Of a DNA stretch of 64,000 bases, positions 5,154 through 44,348 are shown one piece after another (the first letter of the stretch is position 1; the number at the start of each line of letters is the position of its first letter). The stretch is from Closterium sp. NIES-65 (taxonomy: Eukaryota; Streptophyta; Zygnematophyceae; Desmidiales; Closteriaceae): positions 1-64,000 of the forward strand of contig CANXME010002464.1 in the NCBI GenBank assembly GCA_948144175.1. Direction: 5' to 3'. The notes below the pieces were generated by a model. The model did no database searches. It saw nothing but the letters and a program-made list of their open reading frames with translations, and was not told the DNA's origin. The position numbers and the translations under genes are program-made.

Positions 5154-5460
5154 AGGTGGGGGTCGACAAATTCGCCGAAGCGCATCTGAATTTCCCCCCC
5201 GAATTCCAACCCGCGCGGCTGCCAGACCTGCACCCCGAGCCAACCAAGTCAATCGACTCCCGCCAGAAAGAACGCCCCAACCACATTTCTCACCGAAGCA
5301 GCTAGCTGGTGACAATGCGAAATTTGCGGAAATTGGCAGTTGGGACATCCAGGTGCTCCGTGACTCTTGCCAAACACCACTCGCCCGCCACCTGCCTCCT
5401 GACCCCCCTGCTGCGATTGGCCAAGGAACCTGACTCAATCCAAGCCTCCGTGACTCACCC

Positions 5461-6672
5461 TTGGAGTTCCTAGTCCCCTTCACCCGAAGCTCATATGGCG
5501 CGCCGTCCGAACTTATCATCGATGCCGCCTTCCATGCCAACAACCTCTGCTCCTCGAGGGGAGTACGCCAAAGGGACCCCATGGGCCCCCTTCTCTTCGC
5601 CGCCACAATCCACCCCGCACTAAGGGCAGTAGCCGCCGCCAATCCCACAGTCGTCGTTCTCGCCTATGGAGACGACATCACACTACTCGGCCCTGAACCC
5701 GACTGCACCGCCGCCTTCAACGGCCTCACCGCGGCGCTAGCCCCACTCGGCCTCCACCACAACGCCGCCAAATGTGCGGCCTGGTCACCCACGTCATCTC
5801 AACTCCAGCACCTGCCGTCAGGAGTGCCATGGTCGCCCTCTGGCCTCAAGGTTCTGGGCAGCCCCGTGGGTCCGCCCGAGGACTGCGCCACGTTTCTTCG
5901 CACCCGAATGGCCGAGGCTGTGGAGCCATCGGCACTCCTCTCCGAGCTGGAGCCGCAAGTATGCCTCCTACTTCTTACGCGCTGCATCAGCCGCCGTATC
6001 TCCTACATCCTCCGCACTACCCCCCCGGACTCCCTTCCCCTCGCTGACTGGGACTCCTGGGGGGAAGGAAACTTCCACACCCTCCTAGCATCCGCCGCCA
6101 TCCCTCTGCCACGCCACCGCCCTGAGCAGCTGCGGGTCTGGCGCCAGGCCTCCCTCCCACCTACACTTGGAGGCCTAGGCATTGCCGACCCCGCCTTGGA
6201 GCGGTTCGCGAGCTACCTAGCCTCAACCGCGGCCGCCTTTCACCTCCTCTCCGCGTCTTCCTCTCCCTCCCACTCCCAAGTGCTGGCACTCCTCCCCCTC
6301 TTCTCCGCTGACGCCTCAAGCCGCTCCCAGCTCCCTCTCCGTTTGGCGGCCGCGGAGGAGACCCTGCCACGAGAGGCAATTGGCATTCTACAGAAAGTGC
6401 GGGAGGGGGGGGGATTTCTTGAAACTTCAGCATGCAATCTCCCTCCACGTCCATGCAACAAGGGCAACTGCTGCGGTGCAGGAGAGCAGGGTGATGGCAC
6501 CAAACCCCCTGCTCGGCCATATCCAGCGGCTACAGTCCCTCACAGGACCAGGGGCAAAGGACTGGCTCATGTCCCTGCCTATCAACCGACCGCACCGCCT
6601 GCCAGCCCACTACTTCACCTCTATGGCTGCTTTCCGCCTTGGCATACCCCAGCTCGTCCCGGCCTTCTGTGA
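5461..6672 (+). pseudogene. LINE-B reverse transcriptase, N-terminal palm deleted
   Basis: The open frame begins abruptly at LEFLVPFTRSSYGAPSEL, which in LINE-A lies after motif A. Motif B (GVRQRDPMGPLLFAATI, about 5551-5601) and motif C (AYGDDITLLG, about 5662-5691) remain; LINE-A has YADD where this copy has YGDD. The thumb region has the same blocks as LINE-A, including LLLLTRCISRRISYILRT and LPPTLGGLGIADPALE. The frame breaks at a G run near 6404-6413 and continues in the 6380-6910 frame. Missing motif A means no catalytic activity. Confidence 0.75.
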
Positions 6673-7864: not shown

Positions 7865-8192
7865 AAGATGGGTCAGGGAGGAGGAGTTGGAGGGGGAGGA
7901 GGGGGAGGAGGGGGAGGAGGAGGAGGAGGAGGAGGAGGAGGAGGAGGAGGAGGAGGAGGAGGAGGAGGAGGAGAGGAGGAGGAGGAGGAGGAGGAGGAGG
8001 AGGAGGAGGAGGAGGAGGAGGAGAGAGGAGGAAGAGGAGAGGAGAGGAGGAGGAGGAGGAGGAGGAGGAGGAGGAGGAGGAGGAGGAGGAGGAGGAGGAG
8101 AGGAGGAGGAAGAGGAAGAGGAGGAGGAGGAGGAGGAGGAGGGAGGAGGAGGAGGAGGTAGGAGGAGGAGGAGGAGGAGGAGGAGGAGGGAG
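7865..8192. repeat. (GGA)n polypurine microsatellite
   Basis: Almost uninterrupted GGA triplets with occasional GAA and GA interruptions form over 300 bp of purine on the + strand. All frames stay open, producing poly-Glu, poly-Gly and poly-Arg readings on + and poly-Ser/Pro/Leu on -. These are artefacts. The tract lies directly before the first placed exon of the mannosidase gene. Confidence 0.95.
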
Positions 8193-8279
8193 CGGGCAGG
8201 AAGGGGATGCTACTGTTGTGCTGGGAGGGTGGCAAGGTGTGGGGGGGGCTCGTGGCACTGGTGCTGCTGGCGCCGACAG

Positions 8280-8393
8280 GGGCGGTGGGGAGCGGGCGGC
8301 GTTGCGCTGCGCGTCTCGTTCTCCAAGTCAGCGGCGGGCATGCAACGGGTGGAGCTGGTCTCTCGGAGTGCGAATGTCATGGGGGAGACTGTG
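8280..8393 (+). CDS. alpha-mannosidase exon a
   Basis: The exon follows CGACAG and ends at donor GTGAGT (8394). It is 38 codons, phase 0, including VALRVSFSKSAAGMQRVELV. This resembles the strand-turn-strand segment before the YIF-P block in plant GH38 enzymes. The join to exon b stays in frame. The start is less certain than the donor. Confidence 0.5.
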
Positions 8394-8739
8394 GTGAGTG
8401 GTGTGGCGAAAGAGAAAGGGGTAAGGGTTGGGTGGTGATGGGATGGGAATGGGTGTCTAATGAGGGCAAGGGACTGGCAGCATGACAAAAATCAGTTGTG
8501 TGAAAGATGGGTGGTTTTGAGACGCCTCAAAACAACCCTTCTTTCACGTGAGGGCAAGGGACCGGCAGCATGACAAAAACCAGCTCTTGAGAATAGCAAG
8601 GATCAAGCTGGTATTTTCCTGCAAGCCAATATTGTCTCTCTTTTCTCTCTCTTTTCTGTTCTTTTTGTCAGATTATCATCTGCATTGTAACCTGCATCTA
8701 TCCTATAAGTTTTGGTCAGAGATAGGCACCCAAATTAGT
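8394..8739. other. Intron sequence with a hairpin flanked by 35-bp direct repeats
   Basis: A 35-bp sequence beginning TGAGGGCAAGGGAC occurs at 8461-8495 and again at 8549-8583 (33 of 35 identical, both differences T/C). Between them lies an imperfect palindrome with 22-bp arms (8500-8521 and 8526-8547, 20 of 22 paired) and a 4-base loop. The inner arms read TTTTGAG and CTCAAAA. No coding signal is visible. Confidence 0.8.
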
Positions 8740-8945
8740 TGGGGTGCACAACTAGGGTTAACCCTAGTTTGAGGTTGGAACCCAACCTTGGCCCAATTAT
8801 TGGGCCCCCAAGGTTGGGTTGGGAGATGATTGCCCCCCTTCAATAATGTTGACCCACTTTGGTCAACATTATTGGTCCCCCCAATAACTCCTCAACCCAA
8901 CTTATTGGTGGGGGGCAATAATGTTGGCAAGGTTCCCAACCATAC
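8740..8945. repeat. Foldback element with nested palindromes
   Basis: Three hairpins follow one another. AACTAGGGTT then AACCCTAGTT is a perfect 20-bp palindrome near 8751-8770. Arms AACCCAACCTTGG and CCAAGGTTGGGTT enclose CCCAATTATTGGG near 8780-8821. Arms CAATAATGTTGACC and GGTCAACATTATTG lie near 8841-8874. The sequence after the last hairpin, reverse-complemented, also matches the segment starting at 8774 imperfectly, so the whole could fold back. It has no ORF and is MITE-like. Its ends and any target duplication could not be fixed. Confidence 0.6.
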
Positions 8946-9123
8946 CGCCCATCCTAGCTCAACTATGTATACCCGCATGTGTCCTAAAGCAACCATCAGT
9001 TCCGCTTCAATATTTGTGACATTTTTCGTTTGTATACAGTATAAGTAGTATGACAAAGCAAGACACACTCACACTGATAAGACTCTGCAGTCTGTTGAAC
9101 ACTCTCTTTCCGGCCTCATAAGC

Positions 9124-9365
9124 ATGTGTGATGATGCCCTTTGCACTCCTGCTACATGCCCTGTGCACTCCTGTTACATGCCCTGTGCACTCCTGTTACA
9201 TGCCCTGTGCACTCCTGTCACATGCCCTGTGCACTCCTGTTACATGCCCTGTGCACTCCTGCTTCATGCGCTGTGCACTCCTGCTTCATGCGCTGTGCAC
9301 TCCTGCTTCATGCGCTGTGCATTCCTGCTTCATGCGCTGTGCACTCCTGCTTCATGCGCTGTGTC
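9124..9365. repeat. 22-bp minisatellite (GTGCACTCCTG..ATGCCCT)
   Basis: About eleven tandem units of 22 bp differ in a few positions (TACATGCC versus TTCATGCG). Because 22 is not a multiple of three and the unit lacks stops, several overlapping open frames arise; none is a gene. It lies in the intron between exons a and b. Confidence 0.95.
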
Positions 9366-9404
9366 ATCTGCTCTGCTACCACGCCATCCCTCACCTGCAC
9401 ATGT

Positions 9405-9885
9405 TGCCATGCCACGACGTGCCATGCCATCACATGCAATATCACGCCATGCCATGCCGTGCCATGCCATGCCACGCCATCGCATGCAATATCACGACAT
9501 GCCATGCCATGCCACACGATTGCTAGCAATATCACGCCATGCCATGCCATGCCACACCATTGCATGCAATATCACGCCATCCCATGCCATGCCACGCCAT
9601 CGCATGCAATGTCACGACATGCTATGCCATGCCATGCCACGCCATCGCTAGCAATATCACGTCATGCCATGCCATGCCATGCCATGCCACACCACCGCAT
9701 GCAATATCACGCTATGCCATGCCATGCCATGCCACGCCATCGCATGCAATATCACGCCATGCCATGCCATGCCACGCCATCGCATGCAATATGACACCAT
9801 GCCATGGCATGCCATACCACGCCATCGCATGCAATATCGCGCCATGCCATGCCATGCCATGCAATATCACCCCACGCCACGCGTT
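9405..9885. repeat. GCCATGCCAC minisatellite with a longer internal period
   Basis: ATGCC-rich repeats punctuated by CGCATGCAATATCAC recur every 55-65 bp, giving a two-level repeat. All overlapping Cys/His/Met/Pro frames come from the repeat. The array ends about 50 bp before exon b. Confidence 0.9.
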
Positions 9886-9940
9886 CATGCCATTCCACGC
9901 CAATCCACGCCCTGCCACGCCATGGCAGCTGGTGGGCAAG

Positions 9941-10045
9941 GCAGTGAGCGCCAGCATGATGGAGTATGCAACATTGGCTGGTGGCACATACATCTTCCAA
10001 CCCTCCTAGCCAGCTGCGCCCATCACAAACAACGCCACCTCCCAG
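9941..10045 (+). pseudogene. alpha-mannosidase exon b, with in-frame TAG
   Basis: The exon is bounded by GGGCAAG before it and donor GTCAGT after it (10046). It is 35 codons, phase 0 at both ends, and encodes the conserved GGTYIFQPS block, then TAG (10007-10009), then PAAPITNNATSQ, which joins exon c in frame. Open frame on both sides of the TAG with matching splice phase argues for a nonsense mutation, possibly from CAG. Alternatives are an assembly error or an unrecognised donor before the TAG. Confidence 0.6.
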
Positions 10046-10413
10046 GTCAGTAGGCGGGTCGGTCACAAACGCCCCACCACAGGGCACCATGCCTCTCGCG
10101 CACTGCACTGGTGGCGCCACTGGCGTTCGAGTCCATTCAAGTCACAGGCAGACACACACAGTGCCTGCCTTGATGTGCAACATGCTTCACCTGCTGCATT
10201 AGTGGTGCCAGTGCCTCGAATCTAATCTGCTCAAGCCATGGGCCAGGCACCGCCTACCATGATGCACCATGCCTCTCCCGCACTGCCAGTGCCAGCTGTG
10301 CCGTACCTTCAGTATGGAGTGGCTTCTGATGGGTGGAGTGGAGTAAAGCCGCTTTGCAAGAGGCCTTTGATTTTTGTCGCTTCTTCCTGGCTGATCTGCT
10401 GACGTGGAACCAG
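10046..10413. other. Intron b-c, nothing recognised
   Basis: Unique sequence between donor GTCAGT and the acceptor before exon c. No repeat array, palindrome or extra coding block was noticed. Confidence 0.5.
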
Positions 10414-10485
10414 GTGCCCATTCACATCCAGCGTGGACCAATCGTGGAGGAGTACAGCCGCCAGGTCACTCCATGGATCTCTGAG
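10414..10485 (+). CDS. alpha-mannosidase exon c
   Basis: Acceptor AACCAG and donor GTGAGT enclose 24 codons: VPIHIQRGPIVEEYSRQV then TPWISE. This is the family's conserved strand just before the YPGKDYAEL block. Phase is 0 at both ends. Confidence 0.85.
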
Positions 10486-10490
10486 GTGAG

Positions 10491-10704
10491 TGCACCAACA
10501 CCACCACCACCACCACCACCACCACCACCACCACCACCACCACCACCACCACCACCACCACCACCACCACCACCACCACCACCACCACCACCACCACCAA
10601 CACCACCACCACCACCACCTCCACCTCCTCCTCCTCCTCCTCCTCCTCCTCCTCCTCCTCCTCCTCCTCCTCCTCCTCCTCCTCCTCCTCCTCCTCCTCC
10701 TCCT
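10491..10704. repeat. (CAC)n followed by (CCT)n microsatellite
   Basis: CAC triplets run from about 10491 to 10620 and switch to CCT triplets to about 10704, starting five bases after the exon c donor. Poly-His, poly-Pro and poly-Leu frames here are artefacts. Confidence 0.95.
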
Positions 10705-10904
10705 TACCTCCTTCACTTTCTTGATTCTGGCTTGGTGTTTTGAGAACGTTTGGAAACCTTCCACCTCCGCACCTCTTGCCCCTGCCTTGTCTGATATGCT
10801 TTTCGGTCCTTTTTGCACTATTCACGCTGCTGTACGCTATTTATCACAGCGACACGCACGCACATACATTGCTCGATTAATGATTGCGTAATGATCGCAC
10901 AGCC

Positions 10905-13900
10905 ACACTCAGTGCACGTGTGTCTACGCCACACTCAGTGCACGAATGTCTACGCCACACTCAGTGCACGTGTGTCTACGCCACACTCAGTACACGTGTG
11001 TCCACGCCACACTCAGTACACGTGTGTCCACGCCACACTCAGTGCACGTGTGTCCACGCCACACTCAGTGCACGCGTGTCTATGCCACACTCAGTGCACG
11101 TGTGTCTATGCCACACTCAGTGCACGTGTGTCTACGCCACACTCAGTGCACGTGTGTCCACGCCACACTTAGTGCACGTGTGTCTATGCCACACTCAGTG
11201 CACGTGTGTCTACGCCACACTCAGTGCACGTGTGTCTACGCCACACTCAGTGCACGTGTGTCCACGCCACACTCCGTACACATGTGTCCACGCCACACTC
11301 CGTGCACGTGTGTCCACGCCACATTCAGTGCACGTGTGTCTTCGCCACACTCAGTGCACGTGTGTCTTCGCCACACTCAGTGCACGTGTGTCTTCGCCAC
11401 ACTCAGTGCACGTGTGTCTTCGCCACACTCAGTGCACGTGTGTCTACGCCACACTCAGTGCACGTGCGTCTACGCCACACTCAGTGCACGTGTGTCTTCG
11501 CCACACTCAGTGCACGTGTGTCTTCGCCACACTCAGTGCACGTGTGTCTACGCCACACTCAGTGCACGTGCGTCTACGCCACACTCAGTGCATGTGTTTC
11601 TACGCCATACTCAGTGCATGTGTGTCTTCGTCACACTCAGTGCACGTGTGTCTACGTCACACTCAGTGCACGTGTGTCTACTCCACACTCAGTGCACGTC
11701 TGTCTACGCCATACTCAGTGCACGTGTGTCTTCGCCACACTCAGTGCACGTGCGTCTATGCCACACTGAGTGCACGTGTTTCTTTGCCACACTCAGTGCA
11801 CGTGTGTCTACGCCACACTCAGTGCACGTGTGTCTACGCCACATTAAGTGCACGTGTGTCTACGCCACACTCAGTACACGTGTGTCCACGCCACACTCAG
11901 TGCACGTGTGTCCACGCCACACTCAGTGCACGTGTGTCCACGCCACACTCAGTGCACGTGTGTCCACGCCACACTCAGTGCACGTGTGTCTTCGCCACAC
12001 TCAGTGCACGTGTGTCTATGCCACACCAGTGCACGTGTGTCTTCGTCACACTCAGTGCACGTGTGTCTACGCCACACTCAGTGCACGTGTGTCTACGCCA
12101 CACTCAGTGCACGTGTGTCTACGCCACACTCAGTGCAAGTGTGTCTACGCCACACTCAGTGCAAGTGTGTCTATGCCATACTCAGTGCACGTGTGTCTAC
12201 GCCACACTCAGTGCACGTGTGTCTACGCCACACTCAGTGCACGTGTGTCTTCGTCACACTCAGTGCACGTGTGTCTACGCCACACTCAGTGCACGTGTGT
12301 CTACGCCACACTCAGTGCACGTGTGTCTACGCCACACTTAGTGCACGTGTGTCTTCGTCACACTCAGTGCACATGTGTCTACGCCACACTCAGTGCACGT
12401 GTGTCTACGCCACACTCAGTGCACGTGTGTCTACGCCACACTCAGTGCACGTGTGTCTTCGCCACACTCAGTACACGTGTGTCCACGCCACACTCAGTGC
12501 ACGTGTGTCCACGCCACACTCAGTGCACGTGTGTCCACGCCACACTCAGTGCACGCGTGTCTATGCCACACTAAGTGCACGTGTGTCTACGCCACACTCA
12601 GTGCACGTGTGTCTACGCCACACTCAGTGCACGTGTGTCTACGCCACACTCAGTGCACGTGTGTCTATGCCACACTCAGTACACGTGTGTCCACGCCACA
12701 CTCAGTGCACGTGTGTCCACGCCACACTCAGTGCACGTGTGTCTACGCCACATTCAGTGCACGTGTGTCTACACCACACTCAGTACACGTGTGTCCACGC
12801 CACACTCAGTGCACGTGTGTCCACGCCACACTCAGTGCACGTGTGTCGACGCCACACTCAGTGCACGTGTGTCCACGCCACACTCAGTGCACGTGTGTCT
12901 TCGCCACACTCAGTGCACGTGTGTCTACGCCACACTCAGTGCACGTGTGTCTTCGCCACACTCAGTACACGTGTGTCCACGCCACACTCAGTGCACGTGT
13001 GTCCACGCCACACTCAGTGCACGTGTGTCCACGCCACACTCAGTGCACGCGTGTCTATGCCACACTAAGTGCACGTGTGTCTACGCCACACTCAGTGCAC
13101 GTGTGTCTACGCCACACTCAGTGCACGTGTGTCTACGCCACACTCAGTGTACGTGTGTCTATGCCACACTCAGTACACGTGTGTCCACGCCACACTCAGT
13201 GCACGTGTGTCCACGCCACACTCAGTGCACGTGTGTCTACGCCACATTCAGTGCACGTGTGTCTACGCCACACTCAGTACACGTGTGTCCACGCCACACT
13301 CAGTGCACGTGTGTCCACGCCACACTCAGTGCACGTGTGTCGACGCCACACTCAGTGCACGTGTGTCCACGCCACACTCAGTGCACGTGTGTCCACGCCA
13401 CACTCAGTGCACGTGTTTCTACGCCACACTCAGTGCACCTGTGTCTTCGCCACACTCAGTGCACGTGTGTCTACGCCACACTCAGTGCACGTGTGTCTTT
13501 GCCACACTCAGTGCACGTGTGTCTACGCCACACTCAGTGCACGTGTGTCTACGCCACACTCAGTGCACGTGTGTCTACGCCACATTCAGTGCACGTGTGT
13601 CTACGCCACACTCAGTACACGTGTGTCCACGCTACACTCAGTGCACGTGTGTCTATGCCACACTCAGTGCACGTGTGTCCACGCCACACTCAGTGCACGT
13701 GTGTCCACGCCACACTCAGTGCACGTGTGTCCACGCCACACTCAGTGCACGTGTGTCCACGCCACACTCAGTGCACGTGTGTCCACGCCACACTCAGTGC
13801 ACGTGTGTCCACGCCACACTCAGTGCACGTGTGTCTTCGCCACACTCAGTGCACGTGTTTCTACGCCACACTCAGTGCACGTGTGTCTTCGCCACACTCA

Positions 13901-14206
13901 GTGCACGTGTGTCTACGCCACACTCAGTGCACGTGTGTCTTTGCCACACTCAGTGCACGTGTGTCTACGCCACACTCAGTGCACGTGTGTCTACGCCACA
14001 CTCAGTGCACGTGTGTCTTCGCCACACTCAGTGCACGTGTGTCTACGCCACACTCAGTGCACGTGTGTCTTCGTCTCACTCAGTGCACGTGTGTCTACGC
14101 CACACTCAGTGCACGTGTGTCTTCGCCACACTCAGTGCACGTGTGTCTTCGCCACACTCAGTGCACGTGTGTCTACGCCATACTGAGTGCACGTGTGTCT
14201 ACGCTG
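10905..14206. repeat. 26-bp minisatellite, about 127 units
   Basis: The unit contains CACTCAGTGCACGTGTGTC followed by a variable TACG, CACG, TTCG, TATG or GACG and a C. It repeats with almost no length change for 3.3 kb. No strand + frame of the unit contains a stop and 26 is not a multiple of three, so all three + frames stay open for hundreds of codons. A composite variant near 12548-12575 recurs near 13042-13069, 494 bp (19 units) away, showing block duplication. The array lies wholly inside the intron between exons c and d. Confidence 0.95.
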
Positions 14207-14323
14207 CATTCAACTGCCTTTTCTGAGATGCTTTGTGTGACTCCTTTGCTCCGTTTCACCCTCCCATAAGACATCCAACGCAGTGGTGCGTAAGTTGCTT
14301 GCTTGCTGTTCAATTTACTCGCC

Positions 14324-14375
14324 ACTCTCAATGCGATTGCTTTTGATTCGACTCAAAAGCAAACTCCCAATGCGA
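14324..14375. repeat. 26-bp palindrome bounded by 13-bp direct repeats
   Basis: ACTCTCAATGCGA (14324-14336) is followed without gap by a palindrome (14337-14362; half-arm TTGCTTTTGATTC, 12 of 13 paired). This is followed without gap by ACTCCCAATGCGA (14363-14375). Direct-repeat identity is 12 of 13. The arrangement is that of a tiny insertion with a target-site duplication. Confidence 0.85.
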
Positions 14376-14473
14376 GGTTTTTCCACTGCCTGCCTGCTCC
14401 CTCTGATAACGCACCACCCTTCATCCTCCCTCTCCCTGTGCCTCTGCCGCTCTGCACCGCTCCCAACTCCCAG

Positions 14474-14530
14474 GTCTTCAGAGTGTATCCAGGGAAGGAC
14501 TACGCTGAGCTGCACTATTCCGGGAGTGCT
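14474..14530 (+). CDS. alpha-mannosidase exon d
   Basis: Acceptor TCCCAG and donor GTTTGA enclose 19 codons, VFRVYPGKDYAELHYSGSA, one of the best conserved blocks of the family. Phase is 0 at both ends. The donor is non-consensus at positions +3 to +6. Confidence 0.85.
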
Positions 14531-14731
14531 GTTTGATACCATTTCTGTTCGCTGTTCACTGCTGTCTCAAGAATCCTCAACAGCCAACCCTGCAATCGTC
14601 TCACAAGACGTTGACCCGCTTCACCACTCTCGCTGCTTGCCAAATCAAAGCGTATGCTACTCGCTCACAGCCACCCCACCCCTCATTGTTGTCCATACTG
14701 TGCCTGTGTGTGAGGGGGTTGCACTGCACAG

Positions 14732-14848
14732 GTGGGTCCGTTGCCCTCCAAGGGTCACAACCACGAGGTGGTGACTCGCTTCGTGTCGCCCATCAACAGC
14801 AGCAGGACCTTCTACTCCGACTCCAATGGCCGCAGCTACCTCAAGCGG
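14732..14848 (+). CDS. alpha-mannosidase exon e
   Basis: Acceptor GCACAG and donor GTGAGA enclose 39 codons starting VGPLPSKGHNHEVVTRFV and ending TFYSDSNGRSYLKR. The (F/Y)Y(S/T)DSNGR motif is a hallmark of GH38 lysosomal-type enzymes. Phase is 0. A near-identical copy of the 3' half with its donor lies at 14929-14988. Confidence 0.9.
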
Positions 14849-14928
14849 GTGAGAGGCTTTAACCTTGGAATGAGTGCACATGAATGGATGAATGTCAATG
14901 CCTGGAAGCTCTCTTCACAGCGCCCATC

Positions 14929-14988
14929 AACAGCAGCAGGACCTTTTACTCCGACTCCAATGGCCGCAGCTACCTCAAGCGGGTGAAG
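14929..14988. repeat. Copy of exon e 3' end inside the following intron
   Basis: CGCCCATCAACAGCAGCAG through TACCTCAAGCGGGTGA repeats exon e and its donor with one C/T change. More decayed copies are visible near 15259-15310 and 15448-15500. The nearest copy keeps an acceptor-like TTCACAG before it and a GTGAAG donor after it, so it could act as a pseudo-exon. Confidence 0.85.
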
Positions 14989-15005
14989 GTTTCTTGTTTT
15001 CGAAT

Positions 15006-15228
15006 GAGTGCACACAGTCCTTTCAAATGAGTGCACACAGTCCTTTCAAATGAGTGCACACAGTCCTTTCAAACGAGTGCACACAGTCCTTTCAAATGAG
15101 TGCACACAGTCCTTTCAAATGAGTGCACACAGTCCTTTCAAATGAGTGCACACAGTCATTTCAAACGAGTGCACACAGTCCTTTCAAATGAGTGCACACA
15201 GTCCTTTCAGATGAGTGCACACAGTCCT
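15006..15228. repeat. 23-bp minisatellite (GTCCTTTCAAATGAGTGCAC..)
   Basis: About ten near-identical 23-bp units differ mainly at A/C and T/G single positions. They lie in intron e-f and have no coding value. Confidence 0.95.
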
Positions 15229-15363
15229 TAATTTGATGGTGCCTAGAAGCTCACGTCACAGCTCACTGCAACAGCAGCAACACCTTCTACTCTGATTCCA
15301 GTGGCTGGCTGGAGCCGCATCAAGAAGGCGAGGCGGTGTTGGGACTGGTCAGCTGTTCCTTCC

Positions 15364-15421
15364 TTACACACCAGGGAGTCGTGCTTTGAGTCGACTCAAA
15401 ACACGACTTACACACCAGGGA
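15364..15421. repeat. 30-bp palindrome bounded by perfect 14-bp direct repeats
   Basis: TTACACACCAGGGA (15364-15377) abuts a palindrome (15378-15407; half-arm GTCGTGCTTTGAGTC, 14 of 15 paired, centre GTCGAC). This abuts TTACACACCAGGGA again (15408-15421). The structure is the same as at 14324-14375 with a different target sequence, and the palindromes share the core TTTGAGTCGACTCAAA. Confidence 0.9.
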
Positions 15422-15605
15422 AATTCCTCCATACGACAGCAAGCATCCATCAACAGCAGCAAGAAATTTCACTATTACTCCAATCGCTGAAGCTACATTG
15501 GATGGGTGGGGCTGCATGCATGCATACCCGTCCAAACTTTGTTGGTGCTCTTATATTTGCTTCACTACTTCATCAGCATCAGCACTAGCAGACAGTAATG
15601 GAGGT

Positions 15606-16212
15606 CTGAAATGGCAGTGACTGAGTTTTGAAATGGCAGTGATTGAGTTTTGAAATGGCAGTAATCGAGTTTTGAAATGGTAGTGATCGAGTTGAAATGG
15701 TAGTGATCGAGTTTTGAAATGGCAGTGATCGAGTTTTGAAATGGCAGTGATCAAGTTTTGAAATGGCAGTGATCAAGTTTTGAAATGGCAGTGATCGAGT
15801 TTTGAAATGGCAGTGATCGAGTTTTGAAATGGCAGTGGTCGAGTTTTGAAATGGCAGTGATCGAGTTTTGAAATGGCAGTGATCGAGTTTTGAAATGGCA
15901 GTGATCGAGTTTTGAAATGGTAGTGATCGAGTTTTGAAATGGCAGTGATCGAGTTTTGAAATGGCAGTGATCAAGTTTTGAAATGGTAGTGATCGAGTTT
16001 TGAAATGGCAGTGATCGAGTTTTGAAATGGCAGTGATCGAGTTTTGAAATGGCAGTGATCGAGTTTTGAAATGGCAGTGATCGAGTTTTGAAATGGCAGT
16101 GATCGAGTTTTGAAATGGCAGTGATCGAGTTTTGAAATGGCAGTGATCGAGTTTTGAAATGGCAGTGATCGAGTTTTGAAATGGCAGTGATCGAGTTTTG
16201 AAATGGCAGTAA
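15606..16212. repeat. 22-bp minisatellite (GATCGAGTTTTGAAATGGCA..)
   Basis: About 27 units show very low divergence (CGAG/CAAG and GGCAGT/GGTAGT variants). Long minus-strand open frames of Ile/Ser/Leu/His residues come from the repeat. It lies in intron e-f. Confidence 0.95.
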
Positions 16213-16554
16213 GAGGGACTAGGAGGTCCAATCCCCGTTCACTGCAGCTCAGCCTTCACTGCAGCTCAGCCTTCACTGCAGATTTGTGTTTCTTTTCTCC
16301 ATGCCCTCTCCCTCCTTCATGCCCTCTCCCTTCTCCATGCCCTCTCCTTGCCCATTCCCTTTGCAACAAACATATACGCGCCCACGAAACCAGTGCCATT
16401 GTCCAGCGCTCCTATTCACAAGCCCCAGAATGCCTTCTGCTCACCATCCCCACCATCCCCACCCCACCACACCACTACCATCTGATTGGAGCCTTAACAT
16501 CACCGACCCCGTTCAGACCGCCTCCCTTCTCCATGCCCTCTCCCTTCACCGTTC

Positions 16555-16795
16555 CCACCCCACCACCCACCCCACCACCATCCCCACTCCACCACCATCC
16601 CCACCCCACCACCATCCCCACCCCATCACCATCCCCACCCCACCACCGTCCCCACCCCACCACCATCCCCACCCCACCACCATCCCCACCCCACCACCAT
16701 CCCCACCCCACCACCCCACCATTCCCACCATTCCCACCATTCCCACCACCCCACCACCCCACCACCCCACCATCCCCACCCCGCCACCCCACTGT
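16555..16795. repeat. CACCCCACCACCATCC minisatellite
   Basis: Pyrimidine-rich repeats of about 16 bp and shorter derivatives run up to the acceptor of exon f and thus form its polypyrimidine region. A decayed copy of exon f lies just before the array at 16480-16513. Confidence 0.9.
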
Positions 16796-16798
16796 CAG

Positions 16799-16864
16799 GT
16801 GGTGGACTACCGGTCCGACTGGCACCTTAACGTCACCGACCCCATAGCAGGGAACTACTATCCG
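16799..16864 (+). CDS. alpha-mannosidase exon f
   Basis: Acceptor CTGTCAG and donor GTGAGT enclose 22 codons: VVDYRSDWHLNVTDPIAG then NYYP. The family has a similar DYR-DW...P(V/I)AGNYYP block. Phase is 0 at both ends. Confidence 0.9.
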
Positions 16865-17157
16865 GTGAGTCAACGCAAGTCAACAGGGTCAACTCAAGGT
16901 CAACCAGAGTCAGCAGAGTCAACTCGAGGGCAAAACAAAGTTCCCTCGGTTGGAAGTGGTCCTATCTACCATCGAAGGAGTGGCGCTGGCAAGTCAACCA
17001 GAGCCAACGTGATGGCAACAAGAGCCTTTCTCCTCTCTCTCCTGCTTGACGCGCCCTGCAGCTATCGTTCCGTTGTGTTGCTCTTTCTTTGTCTATGAAT
17101 TGGCACATCTTGGCCTCCTCCCTTTCTCTCTCCTCGACTCCTTGCTCTTCACTTCAG

Positions 17158-17270
17158 ATAACGGTTGGAGCTTTCATGAAAGACAAAGCAGCCCAGTTGT
17201 CGGTGCTTGTGGACCGGGCGGCAGGCGCTGCCAGGCTGGCATCTGGCCAGATGGACGTTATGCTTCACAG
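17158..17270 (+). CDS. alpha-mannosidase exon g
   Basis: Acceptor CTTCAG and donor GTGACG enclose 113 bp: ITVGAFMKDKAAQLSVLVD, then RAAGAARLASGQMDVMLH and AG of an Arg codon. LSVLVDR and the G-x-(M/V)-D-x-M-L-H-R block are strongly conserved. The split Arg codon is completed by the first base of exon h. Confidence 0.9.
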
Positions 17271-17346
17271 GTGACGTCATGCTTCATAGGTGACGTCATG
17301 CTTCACAGGTGACGTCATGATTCACAGGTTAGGTCATGCTTCACAG
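17271..17346. repeat. Tandem 19-bp copies of the exon g/intron border
   Basis: Four 19-bp units (GTGACGTCATGCTTCACAG and variants) repeat the last bases of exon g plus its donor. Each unit starts with GT and ends with AG, and three keep the palindrome TGACGTCA, an ACGT-core/CRE-like site. The repeat multiplies the 5' splice site. Confidence 0.9.
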
Positions 17347-17384
17347 GTGTGGGAGGGCTCTGTAGCACAGGGGGGTGCATGCAG

Positions 17385-17500
17385 TGCTGCCATGGTGCAT
17401 GCAGTGCTGCTGTGGTGCATGCAGTGCTGCCATGGTGCATGCAGTGCTGCCATGGTGCATGCAGTGCTGCCACCATGGTGCATGCAGTGCTGCCATGGTG
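17385..17500. repeat. 20-bp minisatellite (CATGGTGCATGCAGTGCTGC)
   Basis: Six units, one with a 3-bp insertion, lie in intron g-h. A single further half-unit lies at 17556-17570 beyond the palindrome at 17519-17550. Confidence 0.9.
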
Positions 17501-17518
17501 CATGCAAGGAGAATGACG

Positions 17519-17550
17519 AGGTGACTTTTGAGTCGACTCAAAAGTCACCT
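17519..17550. repeat. Perfect 32-bp palindrome
   Basis: The half-arm is AGGTGACTTTTGAGTC and the second half is its exact reverse complement; the centre is GTCGAC. It belongs to the same TTTTGAGTCGACTCAAAA family as those at 14337 and 15378. It interrupts the 20-bp array: TGCCATGGTGCATGCA occurs on both sides, but 12 and 3 bp away rather than abutting. Confidence 0.9.
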
Positions 17551-17634
17551 TTTTGCCATGGTGCATGCATAAAAGGTTATGTGTTGGAGCCTTGCCCTCA
17601 CCTGTGCAACATGGCATGCCATGGGCTATGCGCA

Positions 17635-17868
17635 AGCCATGCTCATGTTGCAAGCCATGCTCATGTTGCAAGCCATGCTCATGTTGCAGCCATGCTCATG
17701 TTGCAAGCCATGCTCATGTTGCAAGCCATGCTCATGTTGCAAGCCATGCTCATGCTGCAAGCCATGCTCATGTTGCAAGCCATGCTTATGCTGCAAGCCA
17801 TGCTCATGTTGCAAGCCATGCTCATGCTGCAAGCCATGCTCATGTTGCAAGCCATGTTGCAGCCATGT
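17635..17868. repeat. 18-bp minisatellite (GCCATGCTCATGTTGCAA)
   Basis: About thirteen units lie in intron g-h. As 18 is a multiple of three, each frame gives a regular six-residue peptide repeat, an artefact. Confidence 0.95.
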
Positions 17869-18129
17869 CCATGACTAGCCCATGGCAAGCCATGGACTAG
17901 TCGTCGTGTAGCTCCTTCATTCTGATGTGCATGGATAGAGGCGAGCCATGTTTCTCATGCTTTCACACTTCCATCGTTTTCCACCCAAACGTGACATCCA
18001 ACTCCCCTCATCTTCCCCCATCCCCCCCACACATCTCCCCTCATTCCTTCCCATCTCCCCCCAAACCCCCTCCCCCATCTCCCCCCACCCCCCCCCACCA
18101 TCTCCCCCCATCCTTCCACGCGGCACCAG

Positions 18130-18214
18130 GAAGCTGGCATCGCTGGACGACAAGGGCGTGGGGGAGGCACTGGAGGAGAGGATCACACTGGGCAACAAGA
18201 CCCGCTTCCTCACC
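18130..18214 (+). CDS. alpha-mannosidase exon h
   Basis: Acceptor CACCAG and donor GTGAGT enclose 85 bp. Its first base completes the Arg codon from exon g, then KLASLDDKGVGEALEERI, TLGNKTRFLT. The DD-GVGEAL block is typical of the family. It ends in phase 0. Confidence 0.9.
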
Positions 18215-18239
18215 GTGAGTGCTTGCTGCATTATTCACA

Positions 18240-18498
18240 GCATGACTTTCCACGCTTCCACACTTACCCACTTCCACACTTCCGCACTTCCGCACATCCC
18301 CACTTCCGCACTTCCGCACTTCCACACTTCCACACTTCCGCACTTCCATACTTCCACACTTCCACACTTCCAAACTTCCACACTTCCACACTTCCACACT
18401 TCCAAACTTCCACACTTCCACACTTCCACGCTTCCGCACTTCCACACTTCCACGCTTCCGCACTTCCACACTTCCGTGCTTCCACACTTCCGCGCTTG
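18240..18498. repeat. CTTCCACA octamer-type repeat
   Basis: ACTTCCAC and ACTTCCGC units of 8-9 bp run for about 260 bp in intron h-i. Regular WKCGSVEV-like minus-strand frames are artefacts. Confidence 0.9.
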
Positions 18499-18559
18499 GC
18501 CACGGGCTCGAATCTCGTGTAAGCGAGAGATGTCCATTCGGCGACAACTGGATCTCCCC

Positions 18560-18610
18560 GGCTGCTCTGCAGGGTTCATGGGATCTCTGCGCTTCGAGCT
18601 AGCTTGCAGC
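18560..18610. repeat. Decayed copy of exon i 5' end
   Basis: CTCTGCAG then a segment with GGATCTCTGCGCTTCGAG resembles the acceptor and first codons of exon i (GGCTCTCTGCGCTTTGG at 20115). A second copy starts at 19493. The real exon lies 1.5 kb downstream. Confidence 0.65.
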
Positions 18611-18644
18611 GCCGCCAGAAACGCATGAAACTATCTGGCAGTCA

Positions 18645-18664
18645 CTTCTGAGTCGACTCAAAAG
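18645..18664. repeat. 20-bp palindrome, TTTTGAG/CTCAAAA family
   Basis: Half-arm CTTCTGAGTC, 9 of 10 paired, centre GTCGAC. It stands at the left edge of the 22-bp array, whose unit itself contains CTTTGAGTTG. The array region is enclosed by AAACGCATGAA at 18619-18629 and again near 19106-19116. Confidence 0.75.
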
Positions 18665-18667
18665 GAT

Positions 18668-19090
18668 CTCGCTGCTTTGAGTTGGTGTGCTCGGTGCTTT
18701 GAGTTGGTGTGCTCGCTGCTTTGAGTTGGTGTGCTCGGTGCTTTGAGTTGGTGTGCTCGGTGCTTTGAGTTGGTGTGCTCGCTGCTTTGAGTTGGTGTGC
18801 TCGGTGCTTTGAGTTGGTGTGCTCGGTGCTTTGAGTTGGTGTGCTCGCTGCTTTGAGTTGGTGTGCTCGGTGCTTTGAGTTGGTGTGCTCGCTGCTTTGA
18901 GTTGGTGTGCTCGCTGCTTTGAGTTGGTGTGCTCGCTGCTTTGAGTTGGTGTGCTCGGTGCTTTGAGTTGGTGTGCTCGCTGCTTTGAGTTGGTGTGCTC
19001 GCTGCTTTGAGTTGGTGTGCTCGCTGCTTTGAGTTGGTGTGCTCGCTGCTTTGAGTTGGTGTGCTCGCTGCTTTGAGTTGGTGTGCTCAC
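18668..19090. repeat. 22-bp minisatellite (GCTGCTTTGAGTTGGTGTGC..)
   Basis: About nineteen units alternate CTCGCT and CTCGGT. They lie in intron h-i. Long minus-strand Thr/Gln/Ser/His frames are artefacts. Confidence 0.95.
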
Positions 19091-19146
19091 AGTGCGGTTT
19101 AAAAAACGCATGAAGCAAGCCCCTTCCACCTCTCATACCCCTCAAC

Positions 19147-19492
19147 AATCATCGTTCCCCTGCCCTGCAAGTTGACTTTTGACACGTCTCAAAAGTCAGC
19201 AATCATCGTTCCCCTGCCCTGCAAGTTGACTTTTGACACGTCTCAAAAGTCAACAATCATCGTTCCCCTGCCCTGCAAGTTGACTTTTGACATGTCTCAA
19301 AAGTCAACAATCATCGTTCCCCTGCCCTGCAAGTTGACTTTTGACATGTCAAAAGTCAACAATCATCGTTCCCCTACCCTGCAAGTTGACTTTTGACATG
19401 TCTCAAAAGTCAACAATCATCGTTCCCCTGCCCTGCAAGTTGACTTTTGATACGTCTCAAAAGTCAACAATCATCGTTCCCCTGCCCTGCAA
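19147..19492. repeat. 54-bp array: six palindromes alternating with seven 24-bp spacers
   Basis: The 24-bp spacer (AATCATCGTTCCCCTGCCCT plus GCAA) alternates with a 30-bp palindrome (half-arm GTTGACTTTTGACAC, 14 of 15 paired) at 19171, 19225, 19279, 19333 (28 bp), 19385 and 19439. The array begins and ends with the spacer. A single palindrome flanked by a direct repeat, then amplified, would give exactly this pattern. Confidence 0.95.
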
Positions 19493-19589
19493 CTTGTAGG
19501 TTCTCTGCGCTTAGGGCAGCGCACACAGCCACTCATAACCCCTCTTCACTTTGCCTTTTCACTGTTGAAGTCAGACCTTTCCATCTCTC

Positions 19590-20097
19590 CCACCCTACAA
19601 CAACCGTCTCTCCCACCCTGCAACAACCGTCTCTCCCACCCTGCAACAACCGTCTCTCCCACCCTGCAACAACCGTCTCTCCCACCCTGCAACAACCGTC
19701 TCTCCCACCCTGCAACAACCGTCTCTCCCACCCTGCAACAACCGTCTCTCCCACCCTGCAACAACGGTCTCTCCCACCCTGCAACAACCGTCTCTCCCAC
19801 CCTGCAAAAACCGTCTCTCCCACCCTGCAACAACCGTCTCTCCCACCATGCAACAACCGTCTCTCCCACCCTGCAACAACGGTCTCTCCCACCCTGCAAC
19901 AACCGTCTCTCCCACCCTGCAACAACCGTCTCTCCCACCCTGCAACAACCGTCTCTCCCACCCTGCAACAACCGTCTCTCCTACCCTGCAACAACCGTCT
20001 CTCCCACCCTGAAACAACTGTCTCTCCCACCCTGCAACAACCGTCTCTCCCACCCTGCAACAACTGTCTCTCCCACCCTGCAACAACCGTCTCTCCC
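19590..20097. repeat. 23-bp minisatellite (AACAACCGTCTCTCCCACCC..)
   Basis: About 22 units with few changes run up to within 12 bp of the exon i acceptor and form its polypyrimidine tract. A copy of exon i fragments (19493-19590) lies just upstream. Confidence 0.95.
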
Positions 20098-20108
20098 CTT
20101 CCCTGTAG

Positions 20109-20279
20109 GTTGTGGGCTCTCTGCGCTTTGGCCTGCACCCCAACACAGACTCTGAAGAAAGTGCAGGGGAGCAATGGGGGCAAGGGGGGGATTGTCTATG
20201 GTTGGGGCGGGGCAGCGAGTGGAGGAGGGAGCATGCCCAACGGCTCCTAACCCCTCTGCAGCTCGCCTTTGCTGTTGAA
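20109..20279 (+). CDS. alpha-mannosidase exon i
   Basis: Acceptor CCTGTAG and donor GTGAGC enclose 57 codons, phase 0, starting VVGSLRFGLHPNTDSEES and ending SEWRREHAQRLLTPLQLAFA, VE. The WRR...Q..-PL-LAF block is conserved in the family. The Gly-rich middle (GEQWGQGGDCLWLGRGS) is longer than usual and may be an expansion. Confidence 0.75.
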
Positions 20280-20583
20280 GTGAGCCGTGCCATTGTCATC
20301 CCCCTTTCTATCATCTATCTCTTCCATTCGCACAACGGCTTGGCTCCTAGCGTTCTCTTTATACTTTCTAAGCATGTCCCACACGCACAACGGCTCTAAT
20401 CAATCAATTCAACTCTTATTCTGAAACCCTCTCCATCACACTATGATCCCCACCTTTTCCATGCGCTCCCACTCATGCTCTGCGTTCCCTGCAACCCTCC
20501 CAGCTTCTGTTTCAACCCCCAATACACTCGAATCTCTCTCCATCCATCCCAACCCCGTCATATCTCTATCCCTATGCCTGCAG

Positions 20584-20730
20584 ACTCAAAAGTCCATCAG
20601 GGCAGCACAAGGCAGCTACACGTGGCACTACTCCCTCACCCAGCCACCCTCCACGTCAGCATCATCCACGTCATCCAGCAGCCTTGACACCTACTCGGTC
20701 CCTCCCAACGCTGCTGTCATTTCGATGCAG
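20584..20730 (+). CDS. alpha-mannosidase exon j
   Basis: Acceptor CCTGCAG and donor GTAACA enclose 49 codons: TQKSIRAAQGSYTWHYSL, a Ser/Thr-rich stretch, and YSVPPNAAVISMQ. The last block matches the family's YSLP-NVA-ITLQ. Phase is 0. A copy of its 3' end and donor lies at 20815-20867. Confidence 0.85.
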
Positions 20731-20814
20731 GTAACAGCCTCCTCGTTGCAAGCACAGTGTTTCATCCATGCTAAACAAAGGTTGTTTAGGCGCCTCAGAA
20801 CCTTCCTCCTACTA

Positions 20815-20867
20815 GGCCCTCCCAACGTTGCTGTCATATCGTTGCAGGTATCAGCCACCTCATTCCA
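20815..20867. repeat. Copy of exon j 3' end with its own donor
   Basis: CCCTCCCAACGTTGCTGTCA through GTTGCAGGTATCAGCC repeats 20700-20745 with a few changes and keeps CAG|GT. Between original and copy is an imperfect palindrome centred on GGCGCC near 20777-20798 (GGTTGTTTAGGCG against CGCCTCAGAACC). Confidence 0.85.
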
Positions 20868-21270
20868 AGCATTGTGTTGCGTTGTAAGGGGCGCCTCAAA
20901 AGCACTGTGTCTCGTTCCTACTGCACTCATGTATCCTTCACTTCAGTAATCATTTCCACGGAACTCACCTTGCACGGAACTTGCCTTCCTTTTCACCCTC
21001 CTACAACACGCGTAGTTGACTGCCCCCTCACTCATCATCACCCCCGTTTTCTCACCACCAGCAGTCACACGAGAACTTCTATCAGAGGATGCTGTACTGT
21101 TCTGTGCTGTGCTGTGCTGTGCTGTGCTGTGCGGTGCTGTGCTGTGCTGTGATGCTACCATTTCTTTTTGAGAAATATCAAAGACCGATTGTACTAAGGT
21201 TGGCCCACCTCTTTCTGCCACTGTCTCCTTTCTTTGATGATGCACTCGCTTGTGCCACTGTCACGTGCAG

Positions 21271-30273: not shown

Positions 30274-30394
30274 TGTCAAATTATAATATTGTGTAGGCTA
30301 TAGTGGGGTAGCCCATATGGGGTACACATTTCTAGGGTTGCATATTTGTATCACTTCCATTCCTTAGTCAATCATTCTCGTTCTACTTTTCTCA
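30274..30394 (+). repeat. Copia 2 5' LTR
   Basis: 121 bp, TGTCAAATTATAATATTG...TTTTCTCA, differing from the 3' copy in about one base (TTTTCTCA/TTTCCTCA), so the insertion is young by LTR divergence. Confidence 0.95.
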
Positions 30395-42680: not shown

Positions 42681-44348
42681 TCAAGAGGAGAGCAAGTGAG
42701 GCAAGACAGGTACAAGACCCAGCTGGGTGCAAAAGCGCTGATGGTCACAAGGCGCGAGTGCCTTGGTGAACACATCAGCAGTGTTGGCCTCAGAGGCCAC
42801 GTACGCAAGTCGCAACTGACCACGCTGCTGCAGCTCACGAGCAAGGAAGTAGCGGAGAGCAATGTGCTTCGTTCTGTGCTCCAAGCGCTGCTCTCGACAC
42901 AAGGCCAGCATGGCCTTGTTGTCTACGTACAGCACTGGAGGAGAACGAGGCGGCTCTCCAAGGTCAGTCAGCAGGTAGGTGAGCCAGCGAAGCTCCTGTG
43001 CAGCCATGGCCCCGGCGTAGATCTCAGCCTCACAACTGGAGCCGAGAACCGAAGACGAGCGAGTAGACCGCCACGAGACAGAGCCGGAACCAAGGCTGAA
43101 GGTGTAACCCTGTGACGACCGCTGCGTAGCCTGGTCGTCAGCCCAAGAAGCGTCCGCGTGGCCGGTAAGGACCACTGGACTCCGCCCTCCAAGCACTAGC
43201 CCCATGCCCGACGTACTGCACAGGTAGCGCAATACCCTCTTCGCTGCAGCCATGTGCTCTGGTCTGTGTCTCCCAGGAGCAACATAGCGTGCAAGAATGC
43301 TCAGAGGGTATGCAAGGTCAGGTCGTGTGCAGGTCATCAGGTACATGAGGCAGCCAACAAGCTCTGCATACGGACCACTCGACTCTACGGACTCATCCGA
43401 AGGCAGAGCTGAGAGTGAGTGGCGAGTAGGCAGAGGAGTGGCCTGAGGCGAGGAGTACGTGAAGCCGAAGCGCTGAAGGACCTGCTGCACCATGTGTGAC
43501 TGAGTCAAGGTAATGGTGCGGCGTGCTCTGTCCCGAGTGATCTGCAAGCCAAGGTAGCTGCGCAGTTCACCCAGGTCTGTGCACGTGTGTCTCTTCAGCA
43601 GTTCGGACTTCACGTAGGCGAGTCCAGCAGTGTCTGCTGTGGCAAAGACCAAGTCGTCGACGTACACGAGGATGTAGAACGGCGGCAGGGAAGTGTCGGT
43701 GCGAAGAAACAGCGACGGGTCAGCAGTAGAAGGAGCAAACCCAAGAGCCGCAAGCGTAGTCCTCAGTGTGTCGTGCCACTCACGCGGTGCCTGGCGGAGA
43801 CCGTAGACTGGCCGTCGGAGGCTCCACTGGGTGCCAGGAGGGAAAGTCCCAGTGAAGCCAGGTGGACGGCGCAGCCAGATCTCCTCGTGCAGGCTACCCT
43901 GCAGGAACGCAGTGCTGAAGTCGAGAGAGTGAAGCTCGTAGTCGCGCTGAGCGGCTATGTGCAGCAGCACCCGAAGAGTGGTCATCTTCGGTGTGGGAGA
44001 GAAGGTCTGAAAGTAGTCAACTCCCTGCCGCTGACTGAAGCCACGAGCAACGTACCGTGCCTTGAAGACAGGTGGAGAGCCCGCCGGCCGCTTCACCCTG
44101 AAGATCCACATGCCACTGACGATGTTCGCCCCAGGAGGGGGAACCGCGTCAACGTAGGTGCCTGTGGACTTCCAGGAAGCCATCTCTGCATCCATAGCTG
44201 CCTGCCACTGAGAGGAGTAGGGACCCTCTACGGCCTCCGCGTAAGAACGCGGAGTCGGGATGTCTAGTGCATCCGGGTCTCCCTCAGGGGCAAGCAGTAC
44301 AGACGCGAGATGAGGTGAAGCAGCCGCTAGACACTGTAACTCCTCCTA
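42681..44348 (-). CDS. Copia 3 reverse transcriptase-RNase H, open frame
   Basis: The open frame runs from the TAG at 44346-44348 to TGA at 42681-42683. It has SYAEAVEGPYSSQWQAAMDA, FKARYVARGFSQRQGVDYF, LDFSTAFLQGSLHEEIW, YVDD in ILVYVDDLVFATADTAGL, then RNase H with GHADASWADD, CEAEIYAGAMAAQELRW and YVDNKAMLALC. All catalytic residues are intact. The one upstream TAG replaces CAG in VLEDRQEE of related copies; the first Met is at 44195. Confidence 0.9.

Follow-up and report, generated by a model that had tools for sequence, protein, structure and literature searches.

What causes a short palindrome to lie between two copies of a direct repeat, and can such a structure be the trace of an insertion? 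The question is raised by the window, the 64,000-nucleotide stretch of Closterium sp. NIES-65 DNA analysed here (C2166:1-64000), for which the initial annotation had proposed a hairpin element of about 30 bp that duplicates 13-14 bp of its target. The two structures from which the proposal arose, at 14324-14375 and 15364-15421, are indeed palindromes between direct repeats when the sequence is read. The other palindromes then listed (8500-8547, 17519-17550, 18645-18664 and 19171-19468) are all real as well, and that at 8500-8547 and the array also have a clear repeat. The features are given below; none has a strand assigned.

8461-8495, no strand: third insertion, left 35-bp target repeat
8500-8547, no strand: third insertion, 48-bp long-arm palindrome with an ACGC centre
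8549-8583, no strand: third insertion, right 35-bp target repeat, with 2 differences
14324-14336, no strand: left target repeat ACTCTCAATGCGA (sequence read and repeat scoring)
14337-14362, no strand: 26-bp palindromic insert with core TTTTGATTCGACTCAAAA and one unpaired position pair (sequence read)
14363-14375, no strand: right target repeat ACTCCCAATGCGA, 12/13 identical to the left copy (sequence read)
15364-15377, no strand: left target repeat TTACACACCAGGGA, 15 bp counting the preceding C (sequence read and repeat scoring)
15378-15407, no strand: 30-bp palindromic insert, a short-arm form of the long-arm lineage ...AGTCGTG-core-CACGACT...
15408-15421, no strand: right target repeat TTACACACCAGGGA, 14/14 identical to the left copy (sequence read)
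17519-17550, no strand: perfect 32-bp palindrome AGGTGAC-core-GTCACCT
18645-18664, no strand: core copy without a detectable repeat
19142-19496, no strand: array in which six palindromes (19173-19468) take turns with seven copies of a spacer, at a period of 54

The palindrome at 15378-15407 has one unpaired position pair, and 4 and 1 extra bases separate that at 8500-8547 from its 35-bp repeats. At 17519-17550 the 16-bp repeats (17491-17506 and 17554-17569) are ambiguous because the left copy, which does not abut, ends a minisatellite. The kinship of the cores, claimed at the outset, holds: TTTTGAGTCGACTCAAAA is matched eight times in the window with up to three mismatches and not once in 100 shuffles. 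Between 8000 and 21000, 14 palindromes have a stem score of at least 10, and ten of them have an abutting repeat scoring at least 10, against a mean of 0.21 palindromes, none with an abutting repeat, in 150 first-order Markov surrogates. By their coordinates, six of the ten belong to the single array at 19142-19496. Because of this, and because the surrogates are free of tandem repeats, control positions within the stretches and palindromes without the core are the better controls. No copies of the family were found at 24250-64000. The introns, the retrotransposons and the scale of the assembly indicate that the palindrome-bearing DNA is nuclear; the exons at about 14480-14990 resemble, we presume from their residue pattern, an alpha-mannosidase gene. 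The locus itself (14205-15620) recurs as an identical copy at G000:C249:78982-80397 and as a 96% identical one at G000:C1786:427261-428630, which are either haplotigs or a recent segmental duplication.

How widespread the family is was judged by the genome-wide core search suggested in the initial annotation, here of assembly G000, with 874,075,685 bp in 2400 contigs. With up to three mismatches, TTTTGAGTCGACTCAAAA occurs at 57,370 places, compared with 180 for its reversed, uncomplemented control. The form with fixed arms and four free centre bases, TTTTGAGNNNNCTCAAAA, is found without mismatch at 30,327 places, compared with 4 for the control. The number of independent insertions is far below 57,370, as arrays and duplicated segments inflate the places. 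By hand count, the centre is self-complementary (TCGA, GCGC, ACGT or AATT) in 46 of 50 listed members of the 30,327, where about 3 would be expected with equal bases.

One test of insertion is whether direct repeats abut the palindromes in excess, and they do. The main sample comprised 20 stretches (198 kb) around copies near the head of the listing, plus the window; it was picked mainly by the core, is biased and is drawn from few contigs. A repeat scoring at least 10 lies at the edges of 60 of 88 palindromic copies, versus 261 of 1760 control positions (14.8%) taken from these stretches, in a genome full of tandem repeats. The excess goes with the core family: at the same minimum stem score, repeats flank 50 of 59 core palindromes and 6 of 23 palindromes without the core. 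Four of these six lie in tandem arrays, one is a variant-core family member and one adjoins a family member. A second set of ten short, previously unused stretches from the same listings had a repeat at 10 of 11 sites, of which four are arrays and L055 matches poorly; it had no control of its own, the array C18:9243-9638 was left out and one copy was cut by the end of its stretch.

The 88 copies represent 52 loci, of which 34 are single-copy. A repeat is present at 21 of these 34, and at the other 13 none scores 10 or more. The 21 repeats are 11-64 bp long (median 27) with a mean identity of 95%, and seven are exact. When a looser core is allowed, 38 of 57 isolated copies have a repeat and 19 have none. 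At 37 isolated loci the lengths run from 11 to 117 bp, the longest (76-117 bp) being weak and perhaps due to chance. When periods of up to 3000 bp were scanned, the best ones came out at 27-154 bp, some of them without meaning. The fixed duplication of 13-14 bp must therefore be abandoned: the range is 11 to about 70 bp, and the two values first noticed are draws from a wide distribution. The view that the targets are unrelated fares better, since the repeats differ from locus to locus while the insert is common to them.

The repeat edges fall close to the palindrome edges, within 4 nt for 17 left and 18 right edges of the 21 single-copy loci, in a search that allowed only -4 to +8. No clear target motif is seen at the repeat edges of 37 loci (in 42 columns the chi-square does not exceed 9.2). 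At L037, L051 and the window insert at 15378 the target seemed to be like the outer arm that is missing there, which suggested priming by microhomology. Identities at first numbered 109 in 279 (0.39) against 0.25 in random pieces, with 0 of 500 draws as high, but decayed arms are mixed into this count. With only the outer target copies compared with the arms, there was no effect (32 loci; Fisher p 0.99 and 0.86), and the idea was rejected. Being shorter than about 100 bp and without a target motif, the flanking repeats look like tandem duplications from break repair.

What lies between the repeats is a palindrome of about 18-55 bp without interior, with a constant core and variable arms; the 30 bp originally proposed is one draw from this wide distribution. 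Arm lineages that share the core include AGGTGAC-, GCGTGTAATGAGTCGTG-, TGATAAGTCGAG-, GC- and GTGAAAGAAGG-like ones, the last having, as read by eye, mostly an ACGT centre. Short hairpins in several related classes, as in organelle short palindromic repeats, are thus what the Closterium arm lineages amount to. In L043 a perfect 52-bp palindrome of the GCGTGTAATGAGTCGTG- lineage sits between 35-bp repeats. The arms are often unequal (lengths of 7 and 2, 3 and 10, 6 and 15, or 17 and 9, for example), and most cores are complete. At L023:5026-5101, L034:2199-2253 and L026:9015-9058 the insert is compound: several cores overlap, as though a palindrome had gone into another. A second, unrelated palindrome family, CCTGTTCGGTTCGCCTCGAACG..., is present without flanking repeats at L025:5472-5515 and L033:2272-2311.

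The two arms change together. Among 77 loci selected by a stricter core pattern, one copy each, pairing is found in 309 of 539 cells of arm pairs 10-16, where shuffles average 193 and reach at most 225, and in 139 of 154 cells of the centre pairs (shuffles 91 on average, 108 at most); for the flank pairs the figure is 148 of 539, with a shuffle mean of 142. In the 138 loci of a looser pattern, a set thinned out by chance hits, paired cells were still above every shuffle and further pair types were no more frequent than in the shuffles (54 vs. a mean of 52.6). Because the shuffles keep relatedness, the strongest sign of co-variation is the existence of several centre types, each self-complementary. 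Halves were also scored for their partners, on both strands, so that a whole palindrome is counted twice, and in stretches chosen, with bias, around whole cores: the opposite half is present for 39 of 42 copies of CTCAAAAGTCACC, two of the three exceptions being in compound inserts, and for 80 of 87 of the plain half GACTCAAAAG. The 35 of 35 partners found for lineage b halves say little, as nearly all come from short core-chosen stretches.

Have the palindromes moved? The insert at 15378, including its asymmetric mismatch, recurs at 100% identity in unrelated flanks, over 33 nt in C2050 and C244 (these two being a single locus, in reverse reading), over 32 nt in C2079 and C212, and over 30 nt in C298. 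Empty sites were sought by joining the left flank, one repeat and the right flank and matching the product to sampled DNA of the same genome. In contiguous matches, a few diverged paralogues show a single repeat without the palindrome, the cleanest case being L021:8969 against L018:3954-3845 (110 nt at 80% identity); the two lie on the same contig with about 45 kb between them. In the alignments of eight such loci the fit is loose at L020:4155 and L026:2257, and several of the loci are copies within stretches of repeated exons. When tandem arrays are masked, an empty-site match is seen at 3 of 20 sites compared with 11 of 800 control deletions (Fisher p 0.004), the empty sites being diverged paralogues of 78-83% identity. 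Unmasked, the excess is weak (5 of 25 sites vs. 22 of 250 control deletions).

Presence/absence polymorphism was not seen: the 96%-identical duplicate of the window locus in C1786 keeps both elements, and it and the four loci of the L043 flank are all filled. Some apparent empty sites did not hold up. The 46-bp difference in C1786 is two units of a 23-bp minisatellite and not the element, and all four loci found with the L043 flank carry the palindrome. A comparison of NIES-68 with NIES-54 proteins, considered as a cross-strain empty site, carries no weight because the NIES-54 array seems to be in intron sequence beside an exon. Of the original proposal, then, insertion of a hairpin with duplication of the target gains from an excess of repeats linked to the family, its fixed duplication length is lost, and its empty sites are paralogues within the genome.

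We prefer the view, and consider it somewhat better than an even bet, that the palindromes are a minute mobile DNA family of the Closterium nucleus, captured at staggered breaks. The hairpin would enter a staggered break as an intact folded or double-stranded unit; both overhangs would be filled in and joined to it, and the overhang would thereby become the duplication. End joining at staggered breaks is favoured because there is neither a clear target motif nor microhomology, and a classical fixed-cut transposase fits badly because repeat length varies while the core is constant and the arms are variable. Vaughn and Bennetzen reportedly traced small tandem duplications to filled staggered breaks in 2014. 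That filled staggered breaks give short tandem duplications, below 100 bp and at breaks with long overhangs, is also stated in passages of PMC8355091, and in both respects the Closterium repeats would be alike. A conserved palindrome captured between the copies, which is what Closterium has, is not mentioned in those passages. Counting against capture of a hairpin, 13 of the 34 single-copy loci are without a repeat, presence/absence polymorphism was not seen, and no enzyme or donor was found.

The arrays appear to be a later stage. One more repeat than palindromes is found in the arrays at window 19142, L020 and L031, and the L029 array closes with no more than a short fragment of its repeat. 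Arrays of the form (repeat-palindrome)n-repeat would thus be later expansions of single insertions, the repeat-palindrome-repeat unit possibly expanding by slippage or unequal exchange. Since these arrays resemble expanded insertions, the origin of some minisatellites may be explained. Window 10902-14204 is taken up by an apparently intronic minisatellite, in which a 26-bp unit is repeated about 127 times, and many 17-26-bp arrays lie nearby.

Could duplication have come before, rather than with, the palindrome? Old local palindromes whose neighbours were duplicated by slippage or unequal exchange would turn into palindrome-containing minisatellite units, and the genome is extremely rich in minisatellites, with many copies of the family in arrays. 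Such a history would leave two palindromes around one repeat, whereas most of the closely read arrays, L029 excepted, show the reverse surplus. It also has to contend with an insert common to loci whose repeats are unrelated, with the different behaviour of palindromes outside the core family (6/23 vs. 50/59) and with the nearness of most repeat edges to the palindrome edge (up to 4 nt, in the -4 to +8 range), and we hold it to be distinctly unlikely. Retroposition of a hairpin RNA by a LINE-type reverse transcriptase is unlikely too, if a little less so: target-primed reverse transcription leaves target duplications of variable length, and the repeats do vary; many copies have one long and one short arm; and one insert (L053/L054) has a seven-T run beside its short arm. 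The window also has reverse-transcriptase ORFs at 560-2646 and 5434-6672, whose motifs we take to be non-LTR-like and which presumably are an element in pieces. Against this mode of spread, which would be expected to leave partial copies through 5' truncation at any point, halves without a partner are few (3/42 for CTCAAAAGTCACC and 7/87 for GACTCAAAAG, in stretches chosen around whole cores) and no clear nick-site motif was found at the repeat edges of 37 loci.

A miniature element derived from a DNA transposon, with a pair of terminal inverted repeats, no interior and an unseen transposase to move it, would share its palindromic anatomy, arm lineages and copy number with the family, which resembles the ends of such elements in all three. 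Transposases normally duplicate a set length of target. Here the lengths run from 11 to about 70 bp without a clear target preference, and arms without a partner are few in the sampled DNA; we rate this origin as highly improbable. MITEs likewise combine a target duplication of fixed length with a transposase partner. The Closterium palindromes are like MITEs (mentioned in PMC7789003) in their inverted repeats, absence of genes and high copy number, but neither a fixed duplication length nor a transposase partner was seen. That selection instead conserves the palindromes for a function, as hairpins in RNA or as dyad sites for protein binding, with the repeats incidental, we find scarcely credible. 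Compensatory changes in arms and centre would suit such sites, and some copies are intronic or beside exon copies; still, copies are found in unrelated contexts and in long near-identical arrays, the flanking repeats are left unexplained, and 8000-21000 has no Rfam match at the gathering threshold.

If capture at staggered breaks is the right reading, what is the family to be compared with? By analogy, the organelle palindromes of Volvox carteri and the GC clusters of yeast mitochondria appear to be the systems that work most like it. A 1989 study of the yeast clusters is said to speak in its title of single elements and tandem arrays. The Volvox repeats are 10-100 nt long, form hairpins and are regarded as selfish DNA (PMC2670323). 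They are like those of Closterium in being hairpin repeats of related classes in introns and intergenic DNA. They differ in multiplying in mitochondrial and plastid DNA, their nuclear copies being called inert, whereas the Closterium family is found in an assembly of nuclear scale, and in having TAAA/ATTT loops (PMC2670323). The long target repeats also set Closterium apart, the stem 'duplicat' occurring 0 times in the Volvox main text (PMC2670323). As to their spread, three routes are considered by the Volvox authors, transposition, retrotransposition and recombination, without a preference, although the two orientations suggest the first of these to them (PMC2670323). The yeast GC clusters similarly unite short palindromic mobile DNA with direct repeats, but these are AG or ACT (2-3 bp) and mitochondrial, compared with 11 to about 70 bp in Closterium (PMC4478555). 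Introner elements, for example of Amoebophrya, share with the Closterium family a nuclear, intronic location and inverted and direct repeats. Their inverted repeats mark the two ends of an intron, and direct repeats of 3-5 nt sit where exon and intron meet (PMC7789003), as opposed to Closterium inserts of 18-55 bp that have no interior.

The initial annotation knew of organelle counterparts and of no described nuclear one, and none was seen among the open-licence papers listed by the searches either, the Volvox and yeast mitochondrial families being organellar. None of the listed open-licence titles and abstracts describes a Closterium palindromic mini-element, open-licence paper texts had no match to GAGTCGACTCAAAAG, and PMC10407611 was absent from the 13 listed papers that contain the stem 'palindrom'. 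The exact 20-mer CTTTTGAGTCGACTCAAAAG had 0 matches in genome_contigs and viral_contigs, from which close relatives of the window's genome are possibly excluded. Of 8000 proteins scored against the translated palindrome, two had an E of 10 or less, each from a Closterium strain. The translated sequences read as (repeat-palindrome)4-repeat in NIES-54 (E 6e-4) and (repeat-palindrome)6-repeat in Yama58-4 (E 2.8). Because these are two strains, the family is present in at least one strain besides that of the window, and an artefact of a single assembly is unlikely.

Short palindromic mobile DNA has been known from organelles; here it occupies tens of thousands of nuclear places. It is possible, though we put it forward tentatively and with the odds somewhat against it, that this is a new nuclear class: gene-free hairpins of 18-55 bp captured whole, which record overhangs, perhaps seed minisatellites, and have arms that correct each other within the hairpin. 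If true, every insertion is a record of how long the overhang of a single break was. The long target repeats keep the record of the joining event, so that the mechanism is testable with existing strain assemblies.

Other sequences in the region have multiplied too. The intron neighbouring one exon (CATCAACAGCAGCAGGACCTTCTACTCC...) has partly decayed repeat copies of it at 14786-14858, 14920-14984, about 15255-15320 and 15448-15510, and similar exon-like copies are present in L019, L023, L025, L031 and the NIES-65 protein P0123. Such copies look like a habit of the Closterium genome. Window 24250-64000 has several copia-type ORFs with long low-complexity stretches, including that at 42681-44342. 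With this ORF as the query, all 120 proteins listed of 8000 scored come from Closterium strains, and the translated core is absent from these 120 copia proteins (P0001-P0120).
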